Assembly (NCBI RefSeq): GCF_000758165.1 | Contig: NZ_JNUP01000003.1 | Span: forward strand, 248,001 to 312,000 | Origin: Spirochaeta lutea | GTDB taxonomy: Bacteria > Spirochaetota > Spirochaetia > DSM-27196 > Salinispiraceae | Reading direction: 5' to 3' | Length of the DNA: 64,000 bases | Part shown: in pieces, positions 50,667 through 52,485 of the stretch | Numbering within the stretch: the first letter of the stretch is position 1 | Layout: every line of letters begins with the position of its first letter | Notes under the pieces: model-generated | The model's database searches: none | Seen by the model: only the letters and a program-made list of their open reading frames with translations | What the model was told of the DNA's origin: nothing | Translations under genes and position numbers: made by a program

Positions 50667-50711
50667 GGTACTCTTATGTCAAAAAAGTTTTAGCAGGTCA
50701 ATTAATACGCC

Positions 50712-50717
50712 TTGACA
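50712..50717 (+). promoter_or_regulatory. Possible -35 of the cimA leader transcript
   Basis: A perfect TTGACA, 32 bases before the leader ATG. The best -10-like match (TAGTAT, 50740-50745) is 22 bases away, too far for a normal promoter, so the true -10 is not resolved. Confidence 0.3.
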
Positions 50718-50749
50718 ACAGAAAAAAAGTGGTTCACCTTAGTATTGTT

Positions 50750-50815
50750 ATGAACCATTACGATTCTGCCCAAAACTCCATCATCATTCTCATTATTATT
50801 GAGTCTCTGATGTAG
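50750..50815 (+). CDS. Isoleucine-rich leader peptide of cimA
   Basis: A 21-codon ORF ATG...TAG. Codons 11-17 read Ile-Ile-Ile-Leu-Ile-Ile-Ile (ATC ATC ATT CTC ATT ATT ATT), so six of 21 residues are Ile; one more Leu follows near the end. It ends 27 bases before an intrinsic terminator and 74 bases before cimA, an isoleucine-pathway gene. No good ribosome site precedes the ATG. The ORF is too short for the gene finder but its content fits an attenuator leader. Confidence 0.75.
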   Translation: MNHYDSAQNSIIILIIIESLM

Positions 50816-50841
50816 TGTTGGGAAGGAGCCTGTAGGGTAAC

Positions 50842-50872
50842 AGCCGTCTTCCTGGAAGACGGCTTTTTTTTT
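50842..50872 (+). terminator. Attenuator terminator ahead of cimA
   Basis: Perfect 9-bp stem AGCCGTCTT/AAGACGGCT (50842-50850 with 50856-50864), five-base loop CCTGG (which can close by two more C-G pairs) and a nine-T run (50864-50872). It sits between the leader ORF and the cimA ribosome site. The upstream GGAAGG (50821-50826) can pair with TCTTCC (50847-50852) of the 5' arm as an antiterminator. Confidence 0.9.
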
Positions 50873-50889
50873 AATCAAAGGAGTGTTCT

Positions 50890-52485
50890 ATGTCGGCACA
50901 TACAAAATCGGTAGCTATCTTCGATACCACCCTCCGCGATGGTATGCAGGGGTTGGAAATTAACTACTCCCTGGAGGATAAACTCTCTATAGCAAAAAAA
51001 TTGGACGAAATAGGCATTGATTATATCGAGGGAGGATTTCCCCTCTCCAACGATAAGGAGGCCGCCTTCTTTAATCACTGCAAGTCCATGAGCTTTTCCC
51101 ATGCCAAGATTGCCTCCTTCGGTAGCACCCGTAAACCTGGCGGAAAAGCTGAATCAGACGGCCATATCCGAGCGCTCCTGGAGGCCCAAACTCCAGTGGT
51201 GGTTATTGTCGGCAAAACCTGGATGGCCCATGTGGAAAAGGTATTAGGGACCACAGCGAAAGAGAACCTCGCCATGATTGCGGATTCCATCAGCTTCTTA
51301 AAAAGGGAGGGCCGTGAGGTTGTCTTTGATTTAGAACATTTTTTCGACGGATACAAGGATCACCGGGACTACGCCCTGGAGGTTCTTAAAACCGCCAGCC
51401 ATGCCGGAGCAGATGTTCTGGTACCCTGCGATACCAACGGCGGAACCCTGCCCCACGAGGTATCCGCTATCTACGAAGATCTAAAAAGCCAATCCTTGGC
51501 ACCCCTCGGCGGCCACTTCCACAACGACTGCGGTACTGCCGTAGCTAATTCCTTAGCAGCGGTCCAAGGTGGAGCGGTGCATATCCAAGGCACCATCAAT
51601 GGATGGGGGGAGCGCTGCGGCAATGCGAACCTCTGTGCGATTATGCCCAACCTTACCCTCAAAATGGGGTATCACGCCGCCTGCGCGGATCATATGGAAA
51701 AACTTACCAGTTTATCCCGGTTCGTTGCGGAAAAGGCGAATATCATTCCAGATAAGCGTCAGCCCTACGTCGGTATCGCTAGCTTTTCCCACAAGGCAGG
51801 TCAGCATGCCGATGTCATCCTCAAGGCCGCCCATCTCATGGAACATTTGGATGGCAGCCTGGTAGGGAATCATCGCCAAGTGCTGCTCAGCGAACTTGCC
51901 GGAAAATCCACCATCGTGGAAAAAATGAAGAAATACGGCAGCTTCGAAAAGAATCATCCTGCGGTTGAGACCCTCATCCGCACCCTCAAGGATAAGGAAA
52001 ACGACGGGTATGAATACGAAGCCGCAGAAGGAAGCTTCGACCTGCTCATGCGTCAGGCATTAGGGGAGTACAAACAGCTCATTGAACTCAAGAATTACCA
52101 TCTTGAATCCTATAAAACGGCGAATGCCCAGTCCAAGACTGTCGGCAGGATGTTTCTCAGCGATCAGGGACGGGAGGTCATGGGAGCTGCGGTTTGTATC
52201 GGCCCGGTTGAGACCCTGGATGGTTCGCTCCGGGATGCCCTCAGCCCCCACTACCCCTTCCTGGATGGTCTCCGGCTTACCGACTACCGGGTCAGGGTAC
52301 TCAACCCGGAGAGTGCCTCGGCAGCCAAGGTCAGAGTCTTTATAACCTCCACCAACGGAGATGAGGAATGGACAACGGTGGGTGTAAACGAAAACATCGT
52401 CGAGGCGTCATGGGAGGCATTGGTGGATAGTTACGAATACTATTACAACAACCACTATGAGGAACTACCGCCCGAGGCCCGTTGA
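50890..52485 (+). CDS. cimA: (R)-citramalate synthase
   Basis: Condenses pyruvate and acetyl-CoA to citramalate, the threonine-independent entry to isoleucine. The 531-residue protein has the DRE-TIM barrel (DTTLRDGMQ, metal ligands in [17 protein letters not shown]) and a C-terminal LeuA-type allosteric domain (about 385-525). The segment [17 protein letters not shown] and the length mark citramalate synthase rather than isopropylmalate synthase. AAAGGAG precedes ATG 50890. The C-terminal domain suggests feedback inhibition on top of leader attenuation. Confidence 0.94.

Follow-up and report, generated by a model that had tools for sequence, protein, structure and literature searches.

Why does a short reading frame crowded with isoleucine codons, followed by a terminator, stand ahead of a citramalate synthase gene in a spirochaete? 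(R)-citramalate synthase catalyzes the first step of the threonine-independent isoleucine pathway, and the gene in question, cimA (50890-52485), encodes a product that matches TIGR00977, the model for citramalate synthase, with 636.5 bits against a cut-off of 450. Positions are those of the window, the whole 64-kb stretch of Spirochaeta lutea DNA that was analyzed, and all features described lie on its forward strand. The answer put forward here is that cimA is very probably controlled by an isoleucine-responsive, ribosome-mediated transcription attenuator. The basis is computed, and consists of the parts of the leader, their conservation, the covariation of the antiterminator, the match between codons and pathway, and the position of the start codon; from these we infer leader translation, the site of transcription start, termination, and the response to isoleucine.

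Parts of the cimA leader

The leader peptide ORF (50750-50815) has 21 codons and encodes MNHYDSAQNSIIILIIIESLM, ending with a stop codon at 50813-50815. A preliminary description of this DNA had placed an Ile-dense ORF of this length here, and both the ORF and the coordinates given are right. Its control codons (Ile-Ile-Ile-Leu-Ile-Ile-Ile, 50780-50800) place six Ile in seven codons ahead of cimA, a cluster specifying the product of the pathway, and the Ile run is kept in relatives. Across all six frames of the window this ORF is the sole instance of at least six Ile in seven codons, and no such run arose in 20 Markov resamplings of the window. As already noticed in the preliminary description, no Shine-Dalgarno sequence is present ahead of the leader ATG (50750); the sequence, the relatives and a test of start position indicate that the ORF is probably leaderless.

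Four nucleotides after the stop codon begins GGGAAGG (segment 2, 50820-50826), the putative 5' side of an antiterminator, identified by the fold of the RNA preceding the terminator 3' arm and by covariation in relatives. An intrinsic terminator separates the leader ORF from cimA. Its 5' arm, AGCCGTCTTC (50842-50851), is defined by the hairpin and the fold, and its 3' arm, GAAGACGGCT, with the T tract that follows (together 50855-50872), by these and by the sequence. The nine Ts reported earlier are present (50864-50872), but the hairpin, described as a perfect one of 9 bp, has a 10-bp stem and a 3-nt loop (50842-50864). The candidate antiterminator partner, UCUUCCU (segment 3, 50847-50853), lies within the terminator 5' arm and loop. 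Beyond the terminator, an AAGGAG sequence (50878-50883) forms the cimA ribosome binding site, followed by the ATG at 50890, in the order originally proposed. The flanking gene upstream is divergent and the closest same-strand ORF ends 1157 nt upstream, so the terminator has no upstream gene to serve.

These parts suggest a sequence of events in which RNA polymerase would begin at, or a few bases from, the leader ATG, and a ribosome would load onto a leaderless or nearly leaderless 5' end. With ample charged tRNA-Ile, the ribosome would reach the stop codon at 50813-50815 and, since this codon lies four bases before GGGAAGG, would cover that segment (50820-50826); the terminator at 50842-50864 would then fold and transcription would end before cimA. 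The distance from the stop codon to segment 2 falls within about 13 nt, the assumed ribosome footprint. When tRNA-Ile is short, the ribosome would instead stall in the Ile run at 50780-50800, GGGAAGG would pair with the terminator's 5' side, and transcription would continue into cimA.

Occurrence in relatives

Scanning named genomes turned up 34 cimA loci, each of them in a spirochaete MAG, and whole-genome searches found a cimA match in 43 of 46 genomes of the order and in 254 of 395 sampled genomes of the class. Upstream DNA was assembled for 119 loci, and relatives were placed from kinship labels and, for named MAGs, from their titles. Of 39 loci examined within the window's order or close to it, 37 have an Ile-rich ORF and a terminator ahead of cimA, a tally that takes in two loci cut by a contig end, which were read by eye, and one leuA-cimA locus. 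Besides the window, about 50 Spirochaetia loci in all carry this layout ahead of cimA, leuA-cimA, or ilvBN-cimA; the element extends to several further families of the class, where it often precedes leuA-cimA, and in three loci ilvBN-cimA. A detector built for the layout picked out 55 of the 114 upstream regions scanned versus one of 114 reverse complements, and two of the 55 matches (L072 and L124) were judged false. Many more distant members of the class with leuA-cimA operons showed no such element within the fetched DNA. The preliminary description had proposed a comparison of cimA upstream regions in related spirochaetes, and had counted the lack of an Ile-rich ORF there as evidence against attenuation; nearly all relatives in the order whose upstream region could be read carry the ORF, together with the terminator and a covarying antiterminator.

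The attenuator is absent from L003 (genome G044), which belongs to the same family and has the highest cimA identity, and from L099 (genome G009). At both loci cimA itself follows a TTGACA promoter without a ribosome site and seems leaderless (TTGACA, 17 nt, hexamer, 6 nt, ATG). Two more distant loci, L131 and L132, have upstream of cimA a terminator along with a leader that is less rich in Ile (for example MEILSRPVILIIDTHLRPR, followed by a stop codon), and could be weak or diverged versions of the element. In the ilvBN-cimA operons (L084, L085, and L089) the leaders are long and mix Ile and Leu (for example MLFNILSLIIILPIILIISPQSRGEYA), and the terminators lie about 2.3 kb ahead of cimA.

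Antiterminator pairing

In the relatives, the terminator 5' arm and loop are complementary to a segment at the leader stop codon, as in CTTCCTGCGG and CCGCAGGAAGCGTAA, respectively. Each segment pairs better with its own partner than with permuted ones: among the 53 detected loci the duplex scores -17.5 versus -14.75±0.34 (0 of 5000 permutations), and among 29 loci below 75% identity -17.4 versus -14.97±0.46 (0 of 20000). Clustering at 65% identity left nine loci and still gave 12 of 10000; given this small number, sets at 75% and 85% identity were used in its place. The pairing extends beyond the conserved core, as pairs at the three flanking positions form in 52 of 69 cases versus 31.9±4.0 after permutation (0 of 20000), in a test anchored by the motif and made among loci whose cores pair. 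Four to five pair types occur at each flanking position, at one of them A-T, G-C, C-G, T-A, and G-T. Permutation reduces the effect of shared ancestry in these tests and does not remove it; varied pair types at a single position would nevertheless be hard to explain without selection on pairing. The primary sequence between the parts is too variable across loci for a covariance model. When the RNA up to the terminator loop was folded with a ribosome stalled in the codon run and taken to cover 13 nt beyond its A site, 48 of 51 loci formed at least five of the expected pairs between segments 2 and 3.

The copy in the window is among the family's weakest antiterminators, weaker than in most relatives. 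Its count of 2.1 expected pairs in the stalled-ribosome model was set aside as an artefact of the bounds chosen for segment 2, which in the window falls beyond the stop codon. As long as the 3' arm is missing, the window RNA folds into a 7-bp helix, GGGAAGG with UCUUCCU, enclosing a small inner stem, at -13.8 kcal/mol, a value equalled in 19 of 200 shuffles. This is the pairing foreseen in the preliminary description, which had named GGAAGG (50821-50826) as the antiterminator strand. The three bases beside the core still pair. With the 3' arm present the terminator wins over the antiterminator in the fold, and with GGGAAGG covered it forms unopposed. The full leader folds at -42.9 compared with -26.7±3.6 for shuffles (z -4.5), a strength that comes from the terminator and from a hairpin taking in the Ile codons. 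Counterpoints to attenuation at this locus are the shuffles that equal the fold, the poor -10 box of the promoter, and the duplex of the two segments (-10.5 kcal/mol), which a shuffled segment 2 matches in 49% of cases; the loss of the element from L003 and L099 also tells against it. Covariation argues that terminator and antiterminator are mutually exclusive in the family as a whole, and the window's own pairing, taken alone, appears weak but formable.

Promoter and probable leaderless start

The leader promoter is presumed, and weakest in the window. A -35 box, TTGACA, lies at 50712-50717, and no good -10 box is found in the window at normal spacing from it; the candidates are TCACCT (50734-50739) at 16 nt and TAGTAT (50740-50745) at 22 nt, both weak. 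The leader start codon falls 9-10 nt past the former, which is a poor -10 box, or 4 nt past the latter, at its unusual spacing. As the -10 box is weak, the case for a leaderless start in the window is drawn mainly from relatives.

There, when the best promoter upstream of every leader is taken, its -35 box is exactly TTGACA in 44 of 51 cases. An in-frame ATG or GTG lies 4-12 nt past the -10 box in 44 of 51 leaders, compared with two and one for the other two frames, which predicts that transcription begins on the start codon or no more than about five bases from it and would therefore leave no room for a ribosome site. In a few leaders (L015, L020, L023, L067, and L075) the start is 15-19 nt away. 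The cimA-linked leaders of Spirochaetia accordingly look leaderless, and the suggestion that leader translation might be leaderless, made from the window alone, is well supported across the group. Whether the design is general for Spirochaetia attenuators, with Ile leaders at cimA, Leu leaders at leuA, leaders of both kinds at leuA-cimA, and probably Trp leaders at trpE, is an evenly balanced question. If the leaders are leaderless, the first ribosome would load directly where the nascent RNA begins and not at a Shine-Dalgarno site, giving a variant of attenuation in which the timing of initiation is set by emergence of the 5' end.

Leader codons and the genes they precede

The codon content of the leaders follows the genes downstream. 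Over the last 24 residues, the mean content is 5.8 Ile and 1.6 Leu for leaders of cimA alone, and 5.0 Ile and 4.6 Leu for those of leuA-cimA operons (p=2e-7 for the difference in Leu). A separate leuA of the PRK03739 type is found in 26 of 46 genomes, including many members of the order that have cimA alone, and at most of the loci read in genomes of the order it is preceded by a Leu-rich leader with a terminator of its own. The genome of the window is among these: its leuA (L182, contig C44 of G000, just upstream of 19939) has the leader MNDYRSEHFNLHLLALLLFSGSAVAVRGSR, closed by a stop codon and containing the run LHLLALLL, with its own terminator and a duplex of segments 2 and 3 at -21.6 kcal/mol, and this leader is apparently leaderless. 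With Leu codons at leuA and Ile codons at cimA, the codons of each leader in this one genome agree with the product of the gene it controls. A Leu-only leader (ILGLLLSLLLLLGTRG and onward) also stands ahead of leuA at L165, in genome G052, where the cimA leader has the run IIILII.

Upstream of trpE, six genomes were read by eye; five, the window's included, have a terminator together with a short ORF containing Trp codons, and these are probable Trp attenuators. The leaders are L205 (window genome, contig C62 of G000, upstream of 179116), L202, L203, L204, and L207; that of L202 ends in SSWWWLG and that of L205 in NIWNWRPM. No leader was found upstream of ilvB and ilvD in six genomes, or upstream of hisG in the loci read.

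Alternative explanations

The modest quality of the window's copy could mean that an ancestral attenuator is decaying here, its terminator being nearly constitutive or its read-through responding only slightly. Decay would fit the weak pairing of segments 2 and 3, the weak -10 box, and the loss of the element from the same-family genome G044. However, the Ile run, the position of the stop codon, the terminator, and the antiterminator core with its three neighboring paired bases are all intact, and the fold before the 3' arm puts GGGAAGG in the antiterminator; decay is improbable. Leader action on cimA translation or mRNA stability, by translational coupling or reinitiation in place of termination, has a precedent in the proposal that, in many phyla and also in Spirochaetales, expression is raised when ribosomes reinitiate at leader genes (PMC4833913). 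Such a role would leave aside the strong terminator and T tract between leader and cimA and the covariation of the antiterminator with the terminator arm, and cimA has an AAGGAG site of its own; the likelihood of this explanation is very small.

The terminator might also be governed by a T-box, a riboswitch, or a protein-bound antiterminator, the Ile-rich ORF being incidental. Control of this kind is common for terminator-governed biosynthetic genes in other phyla, but neither the window nor any of 13 related loci had an Rfam match above the family threshold. A relaxed Rfam search of the window, up to E = 10, returned no T-box and only chance-level matches, and the 13 related loci held no T-box at gathering score. 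Among the Rfam Leu, His, Thr, and Trp leaders, only His_leader was listed for the window, at 16.2 bits against a threshold of 49, and none for the 13 relatives. Moreover, no feature is better conserved than the Ile or Leu codon run, which varies with the controlled gene; this explanation is highly unlikely. Ribosome-mediated attenuation, the ilv-type reading first offered for cimA, is favored by the relatives, the covariation, and the codon match.

Comparison with known attenuators

Ribosome-mediated attenuation controls ilvGMEDA, ilvB, and leu in enterobacteria. The cimA leader resembles these in its codons for the pathway product, in an antiterminator exclusive with an intrinsic terminator, and in its position before the first committed gene. 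It differs in the gene, citramalate synthase, in its occurrence in spirochaetes, in its unrelated sequence (no Rfam match), and in a leader ORF that lacks a ribosome site and would lie at or near the 5' end of the transcript. The comparisons support a mechanism of the textbook kind at a gene and in a lineage for which no earlier report was found: the literature covered, with subscription papers outside it, yielded none on attenuation of cimA or on amino acid attenuators in spirochaetes. A comparative study from 2010 (Lopatovskaya et al., cited in PMC4833913) also lies outside that literature. If the attenuation reading is true, classical attenuation would be a widespread control of branched-chain amino acid synthesis in environmental Spirochaetia, and citramalate synthase a target of attenuation without an earlier report found. 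The leader codon contents would directly predict the controlling amino acid of each operon, and the roughly 50 loci, with their Ile, Leu, and mixed leaders and covarying antiterminators, would form a natural series for the timing of leaderless translation in attenuation.

The LEU element of Actinobacteria likewise has a Leu-codon leader ORF ahead of leuA, but it is a pseudoknot without a terminator switch (PMC1262725), whereas terminators follow the leuA leaders described here. Leaders without a ribosome site are already known from Corynebacterium ilvBNC and Sinorhizobium trpL. The ilvBNC attenuator of Corynebacterium glutamicum works by terminator/antiterminator competition (PMC11857589), and its leader is cited as having no ribosome site (Morbach 2000, ref. 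42 in PMC4046766). The spirochaete leaders share both properties, again with branched-chain codons, and come from another phylum and precede another gene; Ile, Val, and Leu occur side by side in MTIIRLVVVTARRLP, the Corynebacterium leader, whereas leaders of cimA alone hold mainly Ile. The trpL of Sinorhizobium meliloti, the transcript of which begins at the ATG of the leader ORF, also acts by transcription attenuation (PMC7298713), in that case with Trp codons, ahead of trpE(G), and in an alphaproteobacterium. Set beside these systems, the most interesting feature of the spirochaete attenuators is a leaderless design that appears to extend across a clade.
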